Part shown: piece after piece, positions 5,714 to 47,462 of the stretch
How positions within the stretch are numbered: the stretch's first letter is position 1
Layout of the letters: every line of letters begins with the position of its first letter
Assembly: GCA_017454625.1 (NCBI GenBank)
Contig: JAFTCP010000162.1
Location: 1 to 57,306, forward strand
From: Synergistaceae bacterium
GTDB taxonomy: Bacteria > Synergistota > Synergistia > Synergistales > Aminobacteriaceae
Length of the DNA stretch: 57,306 bases
Direction: 5' to 3'
Notes under the pieces: model-generated
Database searches by the model: none
What the model saw: only the letters and a program-made list of their open reading frames with translations
Told to the model about the DNA's origin: nothing
Translations under genes and position numbers: made by a program

Positions 5714-6587
5714 ACTCAGCAAATGCCTTAGTCAATGGGTAATCCAGCAGTTCTTTTAACGTTACGTAATAGATTACCCGTTGAATTTTCTCGCTCTCAC
5801 AAAACGGGATAACTCGGCAATTCTCAGGACAAATCTTTTTCGCCACCGTCGACGAAGCAAAGCCTAAAGCAAGCTCCTCACTTGTTAATTGGCCGACAAT
5901 ATCAGGTTGACTTGTTGAGCATAAAACTTTCGGCGAAATCCCCAGTTCATCGAACATCAGCGACAATTGACGATGTAAAAGAGTTTTAGCCGACGGCATT
6001 ATTATAGTTTCGTGTGATAAATCTTTCATGCTGAGGCTTTTATTTTTTGCGAGGGCGTTATTTTTCGGAACTATCAACATGTATTCTTCCGTGCTGATTT
6101 TGACGCTGTGAAGTTCGCTTTGCTGTTCCAAAACCGTCGGAGAACTTATCATGAAAACTCCGTGTAAACGCCGGCTCAATAATTTATGAATTAACACGTC
6201 GCTTCCATCAAAAGCAAGTTCATACGAGACAGCCGGATATTTCGCGCGAAAATCATTCAGCAAAGCCAGCAAATTCATATAGCCTCCAATCCAAAGCATA
6301 CCGAGCCGCAAGTTTCCTGATAATAGCTTCGCATGAGCCTGCATAATCTCGGCTAAACTTTCAACCGAAGCAATAATTTCCTCAGCGTAACTCGCAAATT
6401 TTTCGCCCGCGTCCGTCAACGAGACAGAATGAGCATGACGAGTTAAAAGTGTAATCCCTAATTCGTCCTCAAGAGTTTTTACGGCGAACGACAATGAAGG
6501 CTGTGAAAGATGAAGATTTTTAGCGGCGAGTGTGATATTCTTAGTTCGGGAGATTTCGAGGAAATATCGGAGGCTTGACAGTTGCAT
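5676..6587 (-). CDS. LysR-family transcriptional regulator
   Basis: A 303-residue LysR-type regulator. Residues 1-60 form the winged helix-turn-helix, with LRYFLEISRTKNITLAAKNL and LSQPSLSFAVKTLE showing the classical recognition-helix pattern; the rest is the periplasmic-binding-protein-like effector domain. A start 23 codons further upstream is possible, but the ATG at 6587 has a GGAGAG site (6597-6602 on the opposite strand) and gives the usual family start. It is divergent from the DASS transporter gene with 124 bp between, the standard arrangement for LysR control of the neighbour. The effector is probably the transported carboxylate (inference). The 3' end overlaps the convergent sulfotransferase frame by 38 bp. 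Confidence 0.9.
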   Translation of the reverse strand: MQLSSLRYFLEISRTKNITLAAKNLHLSQPSLSFAVKTLEDELGITLLTRHAHSVSLTDAGEKFASYAEEIIASVESLAEIMQAHAKLLSGNLRLGMLWIGGYMNLLALLNDFRAKYPAVSYELAFDGSDVLIHKLLSRRLHGVFMISSPTVLEQQSELHSVKISTEEYMLIVPKNNALAKNKSLSMKDLSHETIIMPSAKTLLHRQLSLMFDELGISPKVLCSTSQPDIVGQLTSEELALGFASSTVAKKICPENCRVIPFCESEKIQRVIYYVTLKELLDYPLTKAFAEFIEHKGNLKAPK

Positions 6588-25187: not shown

Positions 25188-26246
25188 ATGCCTGATGACT
25201 TATTAAGCCCTGATGAAATTAACGCATTACTTTCGGGAGGAGGAGATTTCGGCGATGTTGATGAAATTTCATCGTCGGACGCTGAACAGTTAGCAAAAGT
25301 TGCTGACACCTTCGCTAATTCCGAAAACAGCGTAATAAACATGCTCGCGGGTAAAAATGTTACTACCAATGTCGGAAGTTCTGAAGTCATGACCCAGCAG
25401 GAATTTTCATCAAAATTTTCTGAGCTTCCGTTTTTGTTCTCGAGCACATTCGGCGGAATGGAGGATATTCCTTTAGCTCTCGTTGTTGACCAGAAGGGAG
25501 CATTAACTCTCGCTGACTTAATGATGGGCGGAGGAGGAACAGCATTACCAGAGCCAAGCGATTTATACTGGAACGCCGCACAGGAAGGTTTGAGCCAGGT
25601 AATTGGTTCAGCGTTTACGAGTTTGAGCGGATTACTCGGCAACAGAAAGTTAATGCCTAACAACACGACTTCAGCATTAGGCGAAGACGACTGGCGGGCA
25701 TTCTCGCTTGAACCTGCTGACAAAAAAATTTGGGCAAGTCCCGTAAGCGTGAATATCGAGGGATTAAGCCCGTTTAATATCTGGACATGCTTGACGCTCG
25801 ACAACGCTATAAATATTGCCGGATACATGCGCGATGCTATCGAGGGCAGACAGCCTAAGCCGGATTCATCAAGTAATAACCCTATGGGAGGAGGCGGACT
25901 AATGGGAGGAAGACAGAACGCAGGCCCAGCTGTTGACGTTAGACCTGCTGCGTTTCAGCCGTTGGGAGGCGGAAGCGGAGGAGGTGCGCCGAGTCCGATA
26001 GATTTAATTGCTGATATTCCCGTTCGTGTTACTGTTGAACTCGGAAAAGCGCGTAAAAGTGTCTCAGAAATTCTTGCGCTGACAGCCGGAGCAGTCGTTG
26101 AACTCGACAAAATGGCCGGTGAGCCTGTTGATATTCTCGTCAACGGAAAATTAATTGCTCATGGTGAAGTTGTCGTTATCGATGAAAATTTCGGCGTGAG
26201 AATTACGGACATAATTCCGGGCGGAGCGGCAAGAGCGGCATCATAA
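25188..26246 (+). CDS. fliY: Flagellar motor switch protein FliY/FliN
   Basis: A 352-residue switch protein with three parts: an N-terminal LLSPDEINALLSGGG motif like the CheY-binding end of FliM, a CheC-like middle domain, a flexible Gly-rich linker (about 225-265), and a C-terminal FliN/SpoA domain with DIPVRVTVELGKARKSV and VDILVNGKLIAHGEVV. The long form is normally called FliY and can have CheY-P phosphatase activity; I cannot verify the phosphatase residues, so FliN with an extension is the alternative. It starts with no gap after fliM and ends before the motif-rich region upstream of cheY. Confidence 0.88.
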   Translation: MPDDLLSPDEINALLSGGGDFGDVDEISSSDAEQLAKVADTFANSENSVINMLAGKNVTTNVGSSEVMTQQEFSSKFSELPFLFSSTFGGMEDIPLALVVDQKGALTLADLMMGGGGTALPEPSDLYWNAAQEGLSQVIGSAFTSLSGLLGNRKLMPNNTTSALGEDDWRAFSLEPADKKIWASPVSVNIEGLSPFNIWTCLTLDNAINIAGYMRDAIEGRQPKPDSSSNNPMGGGGLMGGRQNAGPAVDVRPAAFQPLGGGSGGGAPSPIDLIADIPVRVTVELGKARKSVSEILALTAGAVVELDKMAGEPVDILVNGKLIAHGEVVVIDENFGVRITDIIPGGAARAAS

Positions 26247-26259
26247 TTTTTTCAGCACA

Positions 26260-26311
26260 AAAATAGAACGTGTTATATTTTTATGCAGAATAATAGAACG
26301 TGTTATATTTT
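26260..26311. promoter_or_regulatory. Two tandem copies of the 22-bp palindromic motif upstream of cheY
   Basis: Copy 2 at 26260-26281 has half-sites AAAATAGAAC and GTTATATTTT around GT. Copy 3 at 26290-26311 has ATAATAGAAC and GTTATATTTT around GT. Their starts are exactly 30 bp apart, about three helical turns, which would place two bound dimers on the same face of the DNA. They lie between fliY and the cheY promoter. Confidence 0.6.
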
Positions 26312-26386
26312 GATGATAATTTTGTGATTGGGATTTATAAAATTTTCGGGACAAAGAGTTTCAAGCAAATAATTAATTTTATTTCG

Positions 26387-26395
26387 TGTTATAAT
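26387..26395 (+). promoter_or_regulatory. Extended -10 promoter for cheY and the export genes
   Basis: TGTTATAAT at 26387-26395 is a perfect extended -10; no -35 is evident. It lies 51 bp before the cheY ATG and probably drives cheY-fliO-fliP-fliQ-fliR-flhB separately from the motA-fliY part. The same element precedes the esterase gene at 43885. Confidence 0.55.
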
Positions 26396-26446
26396 GCAAT
26401 AAAATTTTCCATACTTATATAAATTTTAATCGGGGGAGTTTTCAGG

Positions 26447-26809
26447 ATGGGCAAAAAAGTTTTAATCGTCGACGATGCGGCATTCATGAGAATGATGCTG
26501 AAAGATATTCTCACAAAGAATGATTTCGAGGTCGTCGCAGAAGCAGAAAACGGTAAGGCAGGAGTAGCTGCTTTCCAGAAATATAAACCCGACATCATCA
26601 CAATGGATATAACTATGCCTGAGATGAACGGGATTGACGCGGTGAAAGCAATCAAAGCCCTTGACCCAAGCGTTAAAGTCGTCATGGTCTCAGCGATGGG
26701 CCAGCAGCCTATGGTCATAGAAGCAATCCAGGCCGGAGCAAATGACTTCATCGTAAAGCCGTTCCAGCCGGAGCGCGTAATCGAAGCTATCACAAAGGTG
26801 CTGTCGTAA
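26447..26809 (+). CDS. cheY: Chemotaxis response regulator CheY
   Basis: A 120-residue single-domain receiver. Asp9/Asp10 in LIVDDAAFMR bind magnesium, Asp54 in ITMDITMPEM is the phosphorylation site, and VMVSAMG and FIVKPF carry the conserved Ser/Thr and Lys. There is no output domain, so it should act by binding FliM/FliY, encoded just upstream. The ATG has a CGGGGGAG site. Its position inside the flagellar cluster is common in Gram-positive-like flagellar operons. Confidence 0.93.
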   Translation: MGKKVLIVDDAAFMRMMLKDILTKNDFEVVAEAENGKAGVAAFQKYKPDIITMDITMPEMNGIDAVKAIKALDPSVKVVMVSAMGQQPMVIEAIQAGANDFIVKPFQPERVIEAITKVLS

Positions 26810-38877: not shown

Positions 38878-40386
38878 TTATGCGTGCACCTCCTTATATC
38901 TATCACTCATTAACACTTTAAGCATATGGCTCATCGGTGTCATGTTGCCGTCGAATTTTTCCTTGAACGTTGTTATTCCCATGCCGCTCGCCAGTGCTGC
39001 ACCCTTTTGATGTGCTGTAACTGGGGCCTGCATCTGCCAGCTGTTTACGTTGATGAAGACTACAGCCGGAAGCTGATAACCTGCAAGCTCGAATTTTGCC
39101 CGTGCGTTCTCGTATACAGTCTTGCTAGGGTCCGCAATCGCGCAGTTAAACTCCATGTCCGAGATTATGTATAAAACTGAAGGCATCTCGTCCTGCTTTG
39201 AATTTGCCTCAATCGCTGTGTAAAGTATCAAGTCAAACACAGCTTCAAGATTTGTAGACATTCCCCAATTCGCCGACTGAATATATCTCAGCTTATCCCT
39301 CAAAGTTTCGCCGTGTATCTCGATTAATTCAGGAATTTCCGAAAAACTTATGAAGTGATTATGAAATCTCCCCTTGCAGCGTTCAGCATGATACAAGCCT
39401 AATGACTGCGAGATTAAAGCCGGTGTAACTGCGTCCCTTCTTTGACAACAATACATTGAACCCGACGTGTCAATTACGCTGATTGCGTTTTCGTTGCCCA
39501 AATTCGCCGGTAAATTTCTCCAGAGAGCTTCGAGAACGTCTTCACCTTTAGCATTCCTAATGCTGTTCCAAAAACTTGTGCCGAAAAACGGACGTACAAG
39601 CTCATACGGGAATAAATTAGCGCAATGAATTTTCTTTTTCCCCGTCGAAACTTCAGCGAGATAATCATAAAAACGTTCGCCGTCGTTCCGCTCAAAAGCT
39701 CCGCGATACTTCAGCATTGCTCCAGCAGGTACAGCCTGATACTTTACTTTTTCGGGCTTCTTTTCGGTCAAATAACGTTCGGTTAAGCCGATGTTAGCCC
39801 GCAATTTCGTGAGCGTTTTTCTGTAGCTGTATTTTGTCATTCCCAGCGCAGGGATTAACTTTTCAGCTATGCCGCGAGTTCTTGCGCTTGAAGTGTTGAT
39901 TGACGGCATCCATTTCGCTAATAACGAAACAGGAGCATCAATTTCACCGTTTTTTCTGGCTTCAAGTGAGGCTAAATCCTTGTCAAGCTGTTCTTTGATG
40001 ACACGGATAACTTCACGCTCTGACTTTGTGCCAATCAAGCATAACATATCATCGAAACGTCCGAACTCGGAGATTAAATGTACGTTCTTCTTTGCTGACT
40101 TCGGCCAAGTTTTAGCAACATGGCGGATTAACGTCCTGAATAGCTGGCGTTCTCCCATTCCTTCGCGAATATCCCGGATGTAAAACAATAACTTCATCGC
40201 AAGTTCCGGATTCTCGATATAAGCCTTGTCGAATAATCTTATCTGGTCATAATCCGAACGATAGCGCATTCCTCCGGCGACTGAGAACAAATCCAAGCAT
40301 GCATCACTTGTTGTTGAATAAGTTACTGCGCCGTTGAGAGTTCTGGTCTTGCTGGCGTTTTTCTTTAAGTGTGTCAGGAAACTCAA
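38878..40386 (-). CDS. Ro60-like TROVE/DUF2828 protein with a vWA domain
   Basis: About 502 residues. The first 300 or so form the helical-repeat TROVE-like region (YSTTSDACLDLFSVAGG, NPELAMKLLFYIRDIREGMG, VSLLAKWMPSINTSS, AMLKYRGAFERNDGERF). The C-terminal part is a von Willebrand A domain with an intact metal site: DTSGSM, a Thr in MSTNLEAVF and Asp in ISDMEF. Ro60 proteins use the same two-part ring to bind Y RNAs and misfolded RNAs. An ATG at 40422 exists, but the TTG at 40386 has a very strong GGAGGAGG site (40397-40405) at good spacing and gives the family's usual start. Upstream lie about 0.9 kb of hairpin-rich non-coding DNA and two WYL genes, all co-directional. The RNA-binding role is inferred from the family. 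Confidence 0.85.
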   Translation of the reverse strand: MSFLTHLKKNASKTRTLNGAVTYSTTSDACLDLFSVAGGMRYRSDYDQIRLFDKAYIENPELAMKLLFYIRDIREGMGERQLFRTLIRHVAKTWPKSAKKNVHLISEFGRFDDMLCLIGTKSEREVIRVIKEQLDKDLASLEARKNGEIDAPVSLLAKWMPSINTSSARTRGIAEKLIPALGMTKYSYRKTLTKLRANIGLTERYLTEKKPEKVKYQAVPAGAMLKYRGAFERNDGERFYDYLAEVSTGKKKIHCANLFPYELVRPFFGTSFWNSIRNAKGEDVLEALWRNLPANLGNENAISVIDTSGSMYCCQRRDAVTPALISQSLGLYHAERCKGRFHNHFISFSEIPELIEIHGETLRDKLRYIQSANWGMSTNLEAVFDLILYTAIEANSKQDEMPSVLYIISDMEFNCAIADPSKTVYENARAKFELAGYQLPAVVFINVNSWQMQAPVTAHQKGAALASGMGITTFKEKFDGNMTPMSHMLKVLMSDRYKEVHA

Positions 40387-40860
40387 TTTTCTTTCACCTC
40401 CTCCGTGAGCGCGTGAAAGCATCTCAGCTCCCCAAGAAAACAGTCTCCTCCCGAAATTCCCGCCGTAAATTCTGAGACTTCTTCAGAATAACGTCAAATC
40501 GCATAAATCAAAGTCAGCGGCAGCAGCATGCGTGAAAATTTTTGCCGGAAACTCTCACGGGCTCTCTGCATGAAACCGTCATCGCTTCATATTCTGCGTT
40601 CCTTCCGGGACTCTTCTGCTTCTACCCTTTTCGGGATTTGCAATAATAATATCTCGACAGGAGTTTTCATAATCGCTCAAAATTCATTGCTCTCATTCAT
40701 TTAACAGTTTAATTCGGTGTAAATCCCCGCACCAGTTCAGCCCCATCTCTTAGCCTTACTCGGTGCCCTCACAAAATCGCGCTGTTACCCGAAATCCTGC
40801 GAATAAATTTCTCCCGTTAATCCTGGCTCACTCGAATTAGTGATACCCTGCAGCAGAAAC
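40387..40860 (-). other. Non-coding, hairpin-rich leader between the candidate RNA and the Ro60-like gene
   Basis: No convincing gene is seen. Inverted repeats are dense: 40469-40489 (7-bp perfect stem ATTCTGA/TCAGAAT), 40518-40547 (CGGCA/TGCCG), a 6-bp closing pair AAACTC/GAGTTT at 40549-40554 and 40661-40666, 40729-40766 (8 bp with one bulge) and 40828-40843 (TCACT/AGTGA). The stem at 40729-40766 competes with GGTG (40716-40719) pairing to CACC (40730-40733). On the minus strand this precedes the Ro60-like start, so it could be a second RNA, a long regulatory leader or part of one RNA of about 700 nt. Confidence 0.4.
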
Positions 40861-41160
40861 AAAAAATGTGTGATATGCCAATCGACGCTAAGTATTAAAT
40901 TAGTCATAGTATGCGATTTAGATTATCTGTCAGGTCATTATTGCTGTTGCTCCTCCCTGAGAAATGGTTATTGTTCTTTCGGCCAATTTACGCTTTTTGA
41001 CGAAAGCAACCGCCTAACCTTCTTTAAGGGATCTCTTCGCTGCAACTTCTGAGTGATAATCTCTGCTGTTTGCGCCGCTATCACTGAAGAGAGGATCTGC
41101 TGCCGAAACCTGCCTCCTGTCTTGGTTTCTGGTAGGTTCGGGATTGTTTCCCCTTCGACG
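40861..41160 (-). ncRNA. Candidate structured RNA upstream of the Ro60-like gene
   Basis: A minus-strand transcript starting near 41160, just after the TATAAT at 41167-41172, would fold into several hairpins: 41103-41141 (CCGAACCT with AGGTTTCGG, one bulge), 41046-41089 (CTTC-AGTGATA with TATCACT-CA-GAAG, 11 bp), 40966-41019 (nested GGTTA, TTG and CTTTCG pairs), 40930-40960 (TCAGG/CCTGA) and 40880-40918 (AATCG/CGATT), ending in six U at 40866-40861. The 5' end reads CGTCGAAGG, which loosely recalls the Ro-binding strand of Y RNAs. Genes for Y RNAs usually sit beside bacterial Ro60 genes. The final stem is weak and no standard Y RNA fold could be drawn by eye, so the identity is uncertain. Confidence 0.4.
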
Positions 41161-41166
41161 CTGAAA

Positions 41167-41172
41167 ATTATA
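41167..41172 (-). promoter_or_regulatory. -10 element for the candidate RNA and Ro60-like gene
   Basis: TATAAT read on the minus strand (41172 to 41167). It lies about 120 bp after the end of the WYL gene and just before the first hairpin. No good -35 is visible, so it may need an activator such as one of the WYL proteins. Confidence 0.4.
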
Positions 41173-41289
41173 CGCTATATCTTTTTATTATCCTGGAAAA
41201 AAAGTTGCGAACTCTAATTGCTTGTCAATTCTGGCTTGAAGTCTTGTGCTAAAGCTCTTATGTCTCGTTATCATGGTATCTCGTCGTAT

Positions 41290-42195
41290 TTATGCTTTCG
41301 TCAGCTCTCTTTGCCGGTCAATTCTCTCTTTAAGACGCGTAATAAAACTCTCAGGCTCCATTACTCTTATTGTCGAACCAAACGAAAGTATCCGGATTAA
41401 AACTTCGGTCTCGTCGTAATGGTCATAATAAATAGTTACGCGGTATTTATTCTCGTCAAGGCGTTTTGTCTCGCGTTGAAGATGTGAGAAGTGAAGCAAA
41501 ACTCGTTCCATAGCGTTCCAACGGTCAATAAGCTCAAAAGTTACGCTGTCGATTATTCCTTCAGGGAGTTCATAAAATTGGCCGGAGTTAATAATCTCAC
41601 AATTTATTATTCGCGACAAATTCACAATCCAGCGGAATTTTTCATCTGCGCCGACAAGTCTAAATCGGTCGTCCTTCTCCGAATATTCAAGGTAATGCGG
41701 CGTAATATTAATCTCCCTTGCCTCGTGTAATCTAGTCTCGAAAATGATTCGCAAATTCTTTCTCTCACGAAGCGCGCGCAATATTATTCTGAAAACAGCA
41801 ATATAATTCTCGTCGTCGTAATCATCGCCGTCGGTGTAACGGTCATAATACACAATCATATCTTTATCGAATAACGGTTCAACGTCATCAAGCCCGGAAA
41901 TATCAGGCTCGAATAATTTTATTCTTGGGTCAGAGATTAAAGACTTAAGCCAGCGTTTTTGCAAAATCGAAAGCGGCATAACAGGGATATTCTCAATCTT
42001 GGGCGTAAAATCGTCGTCGAGAAGATGCCATTTCCCCCCTTGAAGTCCGGCCAATATCGTAACGAAACTTTCACCGAAAGCATATTTATTCACAATGTCA
42101 GCGAATTTTTTCTTCGTCAAAGTTCCCTTGAGAGCTTCACGCAAAATCGATGAAGTCGCAAGGTAATAGCCGCTGTAAATTTCGTTAAATAACAT
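41290..42195 (-). CDS. WYL-domain protein (proximal to the Ro60-like gene)
   Basis: A 301-residue protein. The N-terminal third contains MPLSILQKRWLKSLISDPRI, a helical segment typical of a subgroup of WYL regulators; the middle is the WYL domain (RIIFETRLHEAREINITPHYLEY, ending with FRWIVNLSRI), and the end is a WCX-type extension with ILSFGSTIRVMEPESF. A standard winged helix-turn-helix is not obvious, so DNA binding may depend on the partner WYL protein upstream. WYL domains bind ligands, sometimes nucleic acid, and control DNA-damage, defence and CRISPR genes. It lies 73 bp after the second WYL gene and directly before the non-coding region. Confidence 0.82.
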   Translation of the reverse strand: MLFNEIYSGYYLATSSILREALKGTLTKKKFADIVNKYAFGESFVTILAGLQGGKWHLLDDDFTPKIENIPVMPLSILQKRWLKSLISDPRIKLFEPDISGLDDVEPLFDKDMIVYYDRYTDGDDYDDENYIAVFRIILRALRERKNLRIIFETRLHEAREINITPHYLEYSEKDDRFRLVGADEKFRWIVNLSRIINCEIINSGQFYELPEGIIDSVTFELIDRWNAMERVLLHFSHLQRETKRLDENKYRVTIYYDHYDETEVLIRILSFGSTIRVMEPESFITRLKERIDRQRELTKA

Positions 42196-42268
42196 AACTA
42201 TTTATGATGAAGCTGTACCCTTTCACTATTACACAACTTCCTTCTTTGTCAGATTGTCGCAAATCCCA

Positions 42269-43675
42269 TTAAATTTTGTACATCTCACTTAGAGCTTGAA
42301 CATCCTGATTAAATCGTTCAATAACTCTTTCGTCCGAACATTGCAAGTCCGTAATCCTCCCGATGAAAGTCCTCAAAAACGGGAGCATCTCTAAGGCATC
42401 AAAGACTTCCGCCGAAAATTCCCAGTGATTAGCGTCAACTTTCTCAATTTTTCCACAGCGTTTTTCTCGTTCAAGTCTCTGGATAATATGTTCCTCGCCG
42501 TCGTCAATATAAAGCGTGAAATTTATTCTGGTTATGTCAATTTTCCCATAAACTTTTTTGTGTTCCGAGTTTTCATCAACAAAAGTCCTGTCAATTTTTC
42601 CGCATATTTTTTCGTGTTCTGATTTATCATCAACAAAAGTCGTGTCAACTTTCCTGCATTCCTTTTCACGTTCCGAGTTATCATCAACAACTTTTATTTT
42701 CGTCGTGTCAACTCCTCCGCTTACTCCCCAAACACGAGAGGTAAACTCAGAAACTTTTTGCGTGAGAATTTCCGTAAAAGCCTCTTGATTTTCGGTGTCG
42801 TTAATCAGCATAAACCTTTGGAGCTCCGGAACTTCATAAAACTTTTCGTTAATCTCTACGTCTTCGATTAAGTCAAGCCGGTAAAAATAAAACCTCTCAA
42901 TCTCCATTGACCAAGCTAACAAATACTGCCGGCCTGTCTGAGTTCCGACGTAAATTTTCAGGGGAAACACTTTCACATTCAGTTTCTTAGTGATGAGCTT
43001 AACGCTCCTTTTCTCGTTTACGGCCATGAATAAATCGCATAAAATTTCGCTGTCAAGTGCGTTCAAGATATAGTGATGCTTGAAATAAAATATTCCCGGA
43101 CGTTCTGAGTTGATGAATGAGCCGATAACTCCAAGCGGCGCAATCTCCGAGAAAAATGCTAATGCCGAAGTCCAGCTTTCAAGTTTGATATTATCTCTGC
43201 TGAGCCTGTAAATATTTTCTTTGCCCTGTTTTTCCCGTTCAATCAGGCCAATTTTCACGTATTCAGAAAGTTTCTTTCGTATCGTCGACTCTTCGGGCAA
43301 ATTCTCATCAAGACGTTCATATAACTCATCAAGAATGTCATTAACAGAATATTCATGATTAGGCGCGAGAATATCGAGAATATGAAAGTGAAGCATTATA
43401 TCCTTGTCCGTGAAGCTCTTAGTCCTGAATGCACGGTAAAGCGGATTTTCCGGGATTGCCCGGCTATCAACGGAGATGTAAAATCTTCTTCCTTCGTTAT
43501 CCTGCCCAAAAGTCATGTAATCACCGAGCCAGCTTTCAACTCGTCGGCGTTCGTTGTCGTAACTCCGCGTGCTCTTTTGTGTGTAATCGTTCCTGTGGTT
43601 GAAGCCGTATACGTAGAATGAGCGGATGTAATCCCTAATGCCGTTGAAATTCTTAATTAACTCACTGTAAGCCAT
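42269..43675 (-). CDS. WYL-domain regulator with winged helix-turn-helix and internal repeats
   Basis: A 468-residue regulator. After a family-specific N-terminus (RSYDNERRRVESWLGDYM), residues of about 95-165 look like a winged helix-turn-helix (YSVNDILDELYERLDENL, STIRKKLSEYVKIGLIERE). The WYL domain follows (VKLITKKLNVKVFPLKIYVG, QYLLAWSMEIERFYFYRLD), then a WCX-like C-terminal domain. Between the last two, residues of about 323-380 consist of three tandem 18-residue repeats of the type VDTTFVDDKSEHEKICGK, absent from ordinary family members. It is the first gene of the WYL-WYL-RNA-Ro60 array and the likely DNA-binding controller of it (inference). It is divergent from the esterase gene. 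Confidence 0.82.
   Translation of the reverse strand: MAYSELIKNFNGIRDYIRSFYVYGFNHRNDYTQKSTRSYDNERRRVESWLGDYMTFGQDNEGRRFYISVDSRAIPENPLYRAFRTKSFTDKDIMLHFHILDILAPNHEYSVNDILDELYERLDENLPEESTIRKKLSEYVKIGLIEREKQGKENIYRLSRDNIKLESWTSALAFFSEIAPLGVIGSFINSERPGIFYFKHHYILNALDSEILCDLFMAVNEKRSVKLITKKLNVKVFPLKIYVGTQTGRQYLLAWSMEIERFYFYRLDLIEDVEINEKFYEVPELQRFMLINDTENQEAFTEILTQKVSEFTSRVWGVSGGVDTTKIKVVDDNSEREKECRKVDTTFVDDKSEHEKICGKIDRTFVDENSEHKKVYGKIDITRINFTLYIDDGEEHIIQRLEREKRCGKIEKVDANHWEFSAEVFDALEMLPFLRTFIGRITDLQCSDERVIERFNQDVQALSEMYKI
42536..42706 (-). repeat. Intragenic 54-bp tandem repeats in the WYL regulator
   Basis: Units begin at 42536, 42590, 42644 and the block ends before 42707 on the plus strand; spacings are 54, 54 and 63 bp (the last carries a 9-bp insertion). 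All differences keep the frame. The encoded repeats are highly charged with one Cys or Tyr each, and should form a flexible linker. Confidence 0.85.
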
Positions 43676-45791: not shown

Positions 45792-46430
45792 TTACGTCAA
45801 CGGAAAAATTTTTGCCGCAAACTTGTAAAATCTTCCGTCCCTCTCAAACGGAACTTTAGGCATGCTCACGACTAAATAAGCCTCGTCAAGTTTCACAGGT
45901 TCTTTTCGTGATGTGTAAATCGGATCCGTAATTCTTATGCCCGAATATTTATGATTGTTGTATATGAATGATGCGCGGCAGCTTATTCTGTCGATTTTCT
46001 GCTGATAAGTTATCATGAAATCTTTCACGTTCACGAACACAAGAGAGTAATCAAACTTAAACGTATTCATTTCCTGTTCGGTGAGACTGTCTAAAGTGTT
46101 GCCGAAAATGTATTGATGCTCTTCTGCCGGATGAAACCTTGTTACAGCCTCAAGCCTTGAACTCCCGCGTTTGCTGAGAGTTTCATAGTTTATCATTACG
46201 TCCTCAGTGTGATTATTGGCCGGAACTTCTCGTATCGTGTTCACTCGCACAATATCAAGAGGCTCAAGGTATCCCGGAACGTTTAAAAATTTCGTTTGCG
46301 GCCCCATTAAGGGAGTTCCTGTTGCGTCGCTTACAAACCTAATCCATTTCCGCAAACTCAGCTCAAAGCCGGTTATGCAGAAGCCGCCTTTCATCGTCGA
46401 TTTCGTCATAATTACAACAGTCGCAATCAT
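45792..46430 (-). CDS. Dual OB-fold domain protein
   Basis: A 212-residue protein resembling the dual-OB-domain family: VVIMTKSTMKGGFCITGFEL with a Cys, LRKWIRFVSDATGTPL and YLEPLDIVRV in the first half, and a C-terminal VKLDEAYLVVSMP block. The role of this family is not established; OB folds usually bind nucleic acid or small ligands. Its ATG overlaps the stop of the DUF488 gene upstream (ATGA), so it belongs to a three-gene operon DUF488-DUF488-dual OB. No signal peptide or membrane segment. Confidence 0.65.
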   Translation of the reverse strand: MIATVVIMTKSTMKGGFCITGFELSLRKWIRFVSDATGTPLMGPQTKFLNVPGYLEPLDIVRVNTIREVPANNHTEDVMINYETLSKRGSSRLEAVTRFHPAEEHQYIFGNTLDSLTEQEMNTFKFDYSLVFVNVKDFMITYQQKIDRISCRASFIYNNHKYSGIRITDPIYTSRKEPVKLDEAYLVVSMPKVPFERDGRFYKFAAKIFPLT

Positions 46431-46876
46431 AAGTGAATAATCTCTGTTCCCTGATATTCCCGCGCTATAATCTCAGCTAATAATCTCCTGTGGCATTTCT
46501 CCGGTGTTGGTTCAGCACAGAGAAGGCACACGGAATTTCTCAGCTTGAAGCGTTCATGAAAAAATTTCGCGGCGTTTCGTGTTTCCATGAGAGTAATATA
46601 TTTCTGCGAGTATTCTTCCCATGTGATTAATTTCTTCTTGTACGGCTTCAGAATTTCACTTGACGGCGCTAATTCCGGACAATTCGAGTATTCACAGTTG
46701 CATATTTTCTCCAGGAAATAGGGTAAATCCCGCTTCCTCGTAAAACCCGCGAGCTGAGAGTTATTGTTAAAGCGAACGTCAGCTACAATTTCTATATCGT
46801 GAGACTTTATCAGCTCGAAAAATTCCTCAGCTGTCTTTTGGGTAAAGCCTATCGTGAATAAACTCTTTCTCGTCAT
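46427..46876 (-). CDS. DUF488 family protein (second of two)
   Basis: About 149 residues from the ATG at 46876, which gives the family start LFTIGFTQKTAEEFFELI; the frame itself runs back to 46969. EIVADVRFNNNSQLAGF and LLCAEPTPEKCHRRLLAEII carry the conserved Arg and the Cys-x-Glu...Cys-His-Arg block of DUF488. The molecular function is unknown. The start lies about 50 bases inside the end of the preceding DUF488 gene, and its stop overlaps the start of the dual-OB gene, so the three are coupled. The two DUF488 proteins are clearly different, not a recent duplication. Confidence 0.75.
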   Translation of the reverse strand: MTRKSLFTIGFTQKTAEEFFELIKSHDIEIVADVRFNNNSQLAGFTRKRDLPYFLEKICNCEYSNCPELAPSSEILKPYKKKLITWEEYSQKYITLMETRNAAKFFHERFKLRNSVCLLCAEPTPEKCHRRLLAEIIAREYQGTEIIHL

Positions 46877-47462
46877 ATCGCCAGCCAATTTTTTCGTTCC
46901 GCTTCCTGTATGCCCTGTTGATAATATCGCGCTCAGTCGGGTATCCGCTGAATAAATCGCCATATACACAATCAGGAAAATATAAATTCATCAGCTCATG
47001 TTCCAAATCGTCCTGAGTAAAATTATTCCCGTCAGGCATCAGGTGAATTACATCGCGGCCAATCTCATTGAAAACTCTCGCAACCATAATTGCCCGATGA
47101 CAGTCAATTGGGTTCTCCTCCTTGCACATCAAAGCAAAAGTGTAATCACTGTCAAGCATTCTCACTACGCCGTCATAAAATCGTCTCGACCGCATTAATT
47201 TCTCGTAGTCAAGCCAGCCATTAGGTGTGTAAAATTTTCTGTCCTCCTGTCTTGCTCCGAACTCACGCGCGAAATTCTCATACTTTATGCCTTGAGCTTG
47301 AAGCGTACGGGCGATTACGGGTTTGTCATATTCGATGTGATGACGTGAAAATGGCTTACTCCGAACATCGACGACAAAATTAACTCCGTGTGCTTTGAGA
47401 GCGTCAACAAATTCTTCAACTGTAAAACCTGAATAGCCTATTGTGTAAATTGTATCGGTCAT
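46827..47462 (-). CDS. DUF488 family protein (first of two)
   Basis: A 211-residue DUF488 member with the full pattern: TIYTIGYSGFTVEEFVDAL, VVDVRSKPFSRHH, FAREFGARQEDRKFYTPNG and LMCKEENPIDCHRAIMVAR. The conserved Cys, His and Arg residues suggest ligand binding or catalysis, but no function is proven. It is the first gene of the minus-strand operon with a second DUF488 gene and a dual-OB gene. The family often occurs in variable islands near defence or DNA-modification genes, which fits its position next to the WYL/Ro60 region. Confidence 0.8.
   Translation of the reverse strand: MTDTIYTIGYSGFTVEEFVDALKAHGVNFVVDVRSKPFSRHHIEYDKPVIARTLQAQGIKYENFAREFGARQEDRKFYTPNGWLDYEKLMRSRRFYDGVVRMLDSDYTFALMCKEENPIDCHRAIMVARVFNEIGRDVIHLMPDGNNFTQDDLEHELMNLYFPDCVYGDLFSGYPTERDIINRAYRKRNEKIGWRYDEKEFIHDRLYPKDS

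Follow-up and report, generated by a model that had tools for sequence, protein, structure and literature searches.

A probable WYL-controlled Ro60/Y-RNA operon, related to RNA-repair operons, on a Synergistaceae contig

What kind of system is formed by two genes for WYL-domain proteins, a long non-coding gap and a gene for a Ro60-like (TROVE-like) protein that follow one another on one strand of a bacterial contig? The question is raised by contig JAFTCP010000162.1 of a Synergistaceae bacterium (assembly GCA_017454625.1), positions 1 to 57,306; this whole stretch of 57,306 nucleotides is called the window here, and it holds a single copy of the arrangement, the WYL1-WYL2-gap-TROVE cassette, with all parts on the minus strand (Table 1). 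We consider it likely that the locus is a WYL-controlled Ro60/Y-RNA operon that has spread horizontally and is akin to the rtc RNA-repair operons; among bacterial RNA-repair operons the cassette would probably count as a new form. A first-pass annotation of the same DNA had proposed that a WYL pair, an RNA and a Ro60-like ring act together, and its claims are considered below where the results bear on them.

Anatomy and spread of the cassette

The genes for WYL1, WYL2 and the TROVE-like protein are direct neighbours in 14 more genomes or replicons from several lineages, which with the window makes 15 copies, so that the expected co-occurrence in conserved order was indeed found in other genomes. 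By this comparison the cassette is a real unit that occurs in several groups of gut bacteria, and co-direction has one exception, G845, in which the WYL pair is divergent. RtcB adjoins the TROVE gene in 11 of the 15 cassettes, so that the cassette belongs with the RNA-repair operon already known, as a variant of it; the earlier picture of a cassette separate from RtcB-linked loci has to be abandoned, since RtcB is normally included. RtcB also adjoins four loci with a TROVE gene only (L050, L051, L264, L265), and in G058 the WYL pair and RtcB are present with a different gene in the TROVE position.

About two-thirds of the genomes in the genus of the window have a TROVE gene without WYL genes, with Y-RNA-like units directly upstream, and WYL2 was found in 1 of 43 genus genomes. 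A strict cassette, in which the TROVE gene is always accompanied by the WYL genes, is contradicted by these genomes, although the units do lie upstream of the gene; nearly all genus TROVE genes without the WYL pair have them, usually two. The TROVE-RNA pair appears as the core of the system and the WYL pair as a regulatory add-on.

All 15 cassettes share an element of roughly 25 bp immediately behind WYL2, with the sequence GTTCGCAACTTTTTTTCCgTGAtaa or one close to it; G845 has it between the divergent WYL1 gene and the RNA region. At up to three mismatches the window element is the sole match in the 2.47-Mb genome, and each of the genomes scanned at this threshold gave one match, in cassettes only. 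In most copies a -10 box lies downstream of the element, at 38-40 nt from its TTCG, and with this spacing the end of the element, with GTGATA-like bases in relatives, falls in the -35 slot. The element was also seen at four TROVE loci without a WYL pair found nearby (L253, L260, L103 and L245, the last three read as short stretches). As a feature of viral contigs it was rejected, as its 8 exact matches there are chance-like, with no TROVE gene or units nearby.

In the window itself, the three co-directional minus-strand open reading frames (ORFs) of the first-pass annotation are present in the ORF list, and its non-coding stretch also stands: approximately 0.9 kb between WYL2 and the TROVE start contain no convincing gene. 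The TROVE gene probably starts at TTG 40386 rather than at ATG 40422, because a strong Shine-Dalgarno sequence (GGAGGAGGTG, 40395-40404) precedes the TTG, homologues begin there, and the 12 residues upstream, which homologues do not have, are modelled poorly, with a low predicted local distance difference test (pLDDT) score. The gap had been described as hairpin-rich, with inverted repeats, and this was rejected as beyond chance. Its transcribed strand folds like shuffled sequence (z 0.08), sixteen 100-nt windows gave local z values mostly near 0 with just two near -2, and the inverted repeats are short, distant and at chance level. An Rfam scan of the whole window and of the gap matched no family, YrlA included, and comparison of the gap DNA with 120 related genomes gave a single 27-nt match, located elsewhere.

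The WYL assignments come from profile matches. WYL1 matches the PADLOC WYL model (E 8.7e-5), Pfam WYL (E 5e-3) and, over its winged helix-turn-helix (HTH)-like stretch, Penicillinase_R (E 2e-3), while WYL2 matches the PADLOC WYL model more strongly (E 8.8e-11) and its family matches BrxR in the PDB (E 1.3e-3). Pfam WYL sees the window proteins weakly, below its cut-off, and is matched by 10 of 11 members of the WYL1 family; window WYL1 shares 34-51% identity with 10 aligned homologues. For the winged HTH that the first-pass annotation gave to WYL1, the matches, to Penicillinase_R, PaaX and CARF3 winged-HTH models, were weak; WYL2 had been described as a WYL protein without an obvious HTH, and no HTH model matched it. 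WYL1 is predicted to be a DNA-binding regulator and WYL2 is its probable partner. The two are fused into one protein in G048 and G168, which supports a heteromeric regulator; the PafB-PafC pair is fused in some bacteria.

Other arrangements of these genes were seen in passing. An in-frame 54-bp tandem repeat (window 42535-42690, 2.9 copies, 80% match) lies in WYL1, in the linker before the C-terminal domain. L077 8890-11069 (G060) is a broken cassette remnant in which WYL1 and TROVE are fragmented with stop codons and WYL2 was not found. Divergent WYL pairs lie beside slipin-like genes in L135, L136 and L075, and in L135 and L136 the pair also adjoins a distant RtcB-like gene (29% identity), a second context in which WYL genes and RtcB are linked.

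The Ro60-like protein and its RNA units

Pfam assigns the TROVE-like protein to DUF2828 and DUF7788. Its AlphaFold model, built from 32 sequences, has a pLDDT of 90.2 and a predicted template modelling (TM) score of 0.89, and in a Foldseek search of the PDB the sole matches at E<1e-3 were six Ro60/TROVE chains (E 1.1e-8 to 3.6e-5, TM 0.43-0.55), among them Ro autoantigen 1yvr (1.1e-8), Deinococcus Rsr 2nvo and Thermus phage Ro60 9l5y. According to the model, the protein has the Ro60 fold, a ring of TROVE HEAT repeats with a von Willebrand factor A (vWA) domain. The Pfam TROVE model itself is unmatched, with DUF2828 and DUF7788 found instead in 20 of 20 homologues; this is a sequence-distant branch, and the protein is therefore called Ro60-like by fold and is not placed in Pfam TROVE. 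The residues of the metal ion-dependent adhesion site (MIDAS; DxSxS..T..D), namely D318, S320, S322, T390 and D422, do not vary among 20 homologues, so that the intact MIDAS of a TROVE/DUF2828-vWA protein had been read correctly from the letters. The protein matches PHROG 850, an RNA-binding protein family, at 2.1e-123. A search of the viral collection with the window protein alone returned zero matches and one with the TROVE alignment 559, and Ro60-like proteins are carried by 679 phage records.

In each of the 14 other cassettes the gap holds one or more tandem YrlA-like units. The unit consists of a 7-bp stem, two arbitrary nucleotides (NN), ACAGCA(A), an interior that varies, the complement of the stem and then G, and 69 units were recorded at TROVE loci of related bacteria. 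Units also flank DUF2828 genes in Listeria, Bacillus, Staphylococcus, Enterococcus, Felixounavirus, Campylobacter and mycobacterial phages. The motif was defined on the bacterial and those phage loci and tested on 80 viral DUF2828 loci retrieved later by TROVE alignment, whose contigs include a few near-duplicates. There it gave 166 sense matches in 59 loci against 5 antisense matches, and 40 permuted cores gave a mean of 5.3 matches, one reaching 46. A matching stem accompanies ACAGCAA words in 57% of sense cases (166/292), in 5/31 antisense and in approximately 9% for permuted cores. As the viral units carry 69 different stem sequences, the stem shows covariation, and features that had not been selected for are also kept (C at stem position 7 in 143/166; G after the stem in 149/166).

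Some unit interiors form circularly permuted tRNA-like heads, with the T arm before the D arm and closed by an end stem (L048, L035, L044, L107 and others). In other units the arms follow tRNA order and an anticodon-like arm is retained (L255, L257, L036, L100 and some viral loci), and many have no tRNA-like head; as the T-arm detector was strict, heads were found in a minority of units and their frequency is uncertain. One cassette, L133, has a complete tRNA-Asn(GTT) gene inside its RNA region (6250-6322).

In Listeria phage CKA15, the region with the strongest non-coding transcripts, 26,236-26,727, is one of those that the authors suggest as Y RNA (PMC12282133). That strongest region (L106 2480-2971) contains no ACAGCAA unit and was rejected as the site of the units; the three CKA15 units lie at 25,289-25,553, about 0.7 kb away.

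Table 1. Parts of the cassette in the window, and the loci at which other copies were found
Feature	Position	Strand	Remarks
WYL1	42269..43675	-	Winged-HTH-like stretch (residues ~98-160), WYL domain (residues ~206-288), C-terminal domain; from ORF list, Pfam, PADLOC
WYL2	41290..42195	-	WYL + WCX, no recognisable HTH; from ORF list, PADLOC, BrxR-like match
Predicted promoter/operator element GTTCGCAACTTTTTTTCCAGGATAA	41188..41212	-	Directly behind WYL2; common to 15/15 cassettes
-10 box TATAAT	41167..41172	-	39 nt from TTCG of the element
Presumed transcribed non-coding region	40387..41166	-	Position where relatives have 1-7 tandem Y-RNA-like units
ACAGCA core 1, GCGGCGC-AA-ACAGCAGAG (tentative)	41064..41069	-	Best partner GCGTCGA, 40882-40888, 6/7 pairs
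ACAGCAA core 2, GGAGGAG-CA-ACAGCAATA	40941..40947	-	Closing stem not convincing within 240 nt
DUF2828/DUF7788 Ro60-fold (TROVE-like) ring + vWA with MIDAS	38878..40386	-	From ORF, Pfam, AlphaFold, PHROG
Cassette loci L036, L037, L032			G046, G099 and a Christensenellaceae metagenome-assembled genome (MAG)
Cassette loci L131-L133			G193, G405, G308
Cassette loci L255-L258, L261-L263			G903, G647, G845, G701, G670, G628, G514
Cassette locus L100			Subdoligranulum plasmid; RtcB precedes TROVE

A WYL-controlled RNA-repair operon and competing readings

The reading as a WYL-controlled RNA-repair operon was reached by joining what is known of the Salmonella operon and of WYL sensors with the anatomy of the cassette. 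In Salmonella, RtcR mediates the induction by tRNA fragments of the rsr-yrlBA-rtcBA operon, which encodes Rsr and YrlA, and the tRNA-like YrlA head may, as the authors suggest, inhibit a nuclease (PMC7790460). WYL proteins have been proposed to sense RNAs whose ends are cyclic (PMC9503650, PMC4012209). In the cassette, the WYL pair would act as one heteromeric regulator, comparable to PafBC. Its signal would be a product of RNA damage, for instance cyclic-phosphate RNA ends, and its target the element, which extends into the -35 region. The Ro60 ring may bind each RNA through the 7-bp stem and ACAGCAA; the free tRNA-like head would then direct the ring to a broken tRNA or serve as a decoy for an anticodon nuclease, and RtcB would reseal the broken tRNA.

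A wider and rather doubtful proposal is that bacterial and phage DUF2828-type Ro60 proteins recognise their RNAs by one code, stem-NN-ACAGCAA, and are loaded with tandem RNAs that mimic tRNA in either of two opposite topologies, one permuted and joined via the anticodon stem as in YrlA, the other in tRNA order, joined via a shortened acceptor stem and with the anticodon arm kept. Such RNAs would be decoys or sensors for anticodon nucleases, and the bacterial WYL pair would turn on the RNAs and RtcB in an RtcR-independent response to tRNA damage.

Several observations weigh against the RNA-repair reading. Four of the 15 cassettes, namely the window, L132, L258 and L263, have no adjoining RtcB in the stretch read; for the window operon the absence had been noticed in the first pass and was confirmed by BLAST, the RtcB homologue of the same genome lying on contig C4. 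YrlA (RF02553) is the best Rfam family for the tRNA-like units (E 9e-5 and 1.2e-6; 30.8 and 36.4 bits), however, these scores are below the Rfam gathering score of 69, and the units are therefore called YrlA-like, not YrlA; their Ro-binding core also differs (AUGCuu in YrlA, ACAGCAA in the units). The WYL assignment of WYL2 rests on profiles, because its structure prediction was poor (pLDDT 51) and the model was discarded. Finally, neither a regular expression nor duplex folding nor a core-plus-stem score found a canonical Y-RNA-like unit in the window gap.

The cassette idea is thus carried by the order in 14 other loci, the shared element and the units in every other copy, but not by the gap of the window, which is without recognisable units. 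Nor does this gap look like a YrlA-type Y RNA, as its two cores have no matching stems and no tRNA-like head was seen. The cores themselves exceed what shuffling yields, the second-best core being reached in 3 of 300 shuffles, and with the promoter element they are what sets the gap apart; its best core-plus-stem total was reached in 13 of 300. A stem GGCGC/GCGUC resembling that of core 1 was read by eye in the window-type locus L252, which has a broken TROVE gene and one unit, also seen by eye. No close relative of the window TROVE with an intact upstream region was found, L033/L266 and L251 ending at contig ends. The same genome (G000) has a second Ro60-like gene on contig C108 (L034 3205-5050), with two canonical units upstream. 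Three possibilities are left for the window copy: a diverged RNA, RNAs supplied by that second Ro60 locus, or decay. Lateral gain of the cassette is the simplest reading of its relationships, because its TROVE branches with those of Lachnospiraceae-type MAGs (62-67% identity; genus TROVEs approximately 44%) and WYL2 occurs in just the one genus genome.

Decay, by which the window copy would be a remnant that was gained horizontally and lost RtcB and the RNA units while the protein genes and the promoter remain, is less likely than not in our view. The absence of canonical units and RtcB, the weak total score that 13 of 300 shuffles reach, the rarity of WYL2 in the genus (1/43), the broken window-type TROVE of a related copy in G556 and the 54-bp repeat in WYL1 are all consistent with it; however, the three proteins are intact with conserved residues, the promoter element and -10 box fit the consensus, other copies without RtcB in the stretch read (L132, L258, L263) are intact, and canonical units are present at the genome's other TROVE locus. 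That the genes are chance neighbours and the gap an ordinary long intergenic region is very improbable: it would agree with the folding of the gap (z 0.08) and with TROVE genes that often occur without WYL genes, yet it is already contradicted by the order conserved in 14 other loci and the promoter element in all 15.

Two further alternatives concern function rather than the state of the window copy. The Ro60-like protein and its RNAs may work with an exonuclease in general RNA quality control, as in the RYPER of Deinococcus, and not in tRNA repair or as decoys; in D. radiodurans, Rsr and Y RNA are reported to tether polynucleotide phosphorylase (PNPase) (PMC7790460, PMC8394870). This we regard as somewhat unlikely. 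Alongside the Deinococcus precedent it can draw on the many units without a tRNA-like head and on genus TROVE loci without adjoining RtcB, but it sits badly with RtcB next to 11 of 15 WYL cassettes and to the TROVE-only loci L050, L051, L264 and L265, with the subset of units that do have tRNA-like heads, and with the phage copies, which often have tRNA genes around them and, in Listeria phages, RtcB nearby. Antiphage defence, in which the WYL pair would sense infection and the Ro60/RNA module shield host tRNA or attack phage RNA, is unlikely in our view. WYL regulators control defence loci (PMC4012209), and candidate defence genes of the type PDC-M45 lie nearby (45792-47462); against this, the 679 phage records encoding a Ro60-like protein make it at least equally a phage tool, no PADLOC model matches the Ro60-like protein, and the surroundings are mostly housekeeping.

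Known systems and surroundings

The RNA-repair reading places the cassette closest to Salmonella rsr-yrlBA-rtcBA, which is controlled by RtcR and sigma54 and likewise has a Ro60-fold protein, YrlA-like RNAs with tRNA-like heads and RtcB in one operon. It differs in having two WYL proteins and the ~25-bp element in the RtcR/sigma54 position, a Ro60 of the DUF2828 type and tandemly arrayed RNAs whose core is ACAGCAA; in addition, RtcB is missing from the window copy. With the Deinococcus Rsr/Y RNA/PNPase system it shares the Ro60 fold and a partner RNA, and 2nvo is among the best structural matches, but the cassette would be under WYL control, no PNPase link was seen and the RNA core is unlike that of YrlA. 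The phage loci annotated as 'Ro-like RNA binding protein' or DUF2828 (mycobacteriophage Tyson, Listeria phages, PHROG 850) belong to the same family and adjoin the same RNA motif; in contrast to the cassette, no WYL pair was seen there, the promoter element was found only in the fecal phage contig L103, and the loci often lie inside tRNA gene clusters. The WYL proteins resemble the PafBC and BrxR regulators in their WYL + WCX architecture, although WYL2 has no recognisable HTH and sequence similarity is weak.

These comparisons give a large protein family that is still listed under 'domain of unknown function', and is present in many bacteria besides the phage records, a specific RNA partner that can be searched for, and would link the family to RNA repair. 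They also propose a new mode of control for Ro60/Y-RNA/RtcB operons, by a WYL pair at a defined 25-bp element. As the cassette is compact and its promoter, RNA code and ligase are defined, it makes the roles of bacterial Ro60/Y RNAs and the WYL damage signal testable.

Some minor features accompany the loci described above. The second Ro60-like gene of the genome (L034) is followed by tRNA-Thr-Tyr-Thr genes, and in L252 a ~32-bp tandem repeat of five copies (2398-2570), holding TGACAGCTATAAATAGAG, lies approximately 1.2 kb upstream of the broken TROVE gene. Around the cassette, the first-pass annotation had envisaged a stress or defence island. The nearby minus-strand genes DuOB, DUF488 and DUF488 do match the PADLOC candidate PDC-M45 A, B and C (1.8e-18, 1.7e-48 and 1.4e-50), whereas the wider context, with glyQS, alaS and flagellar genes, looks housekeeping-like. 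One esterase gene separates the PDC-M45 genes from the cassette.

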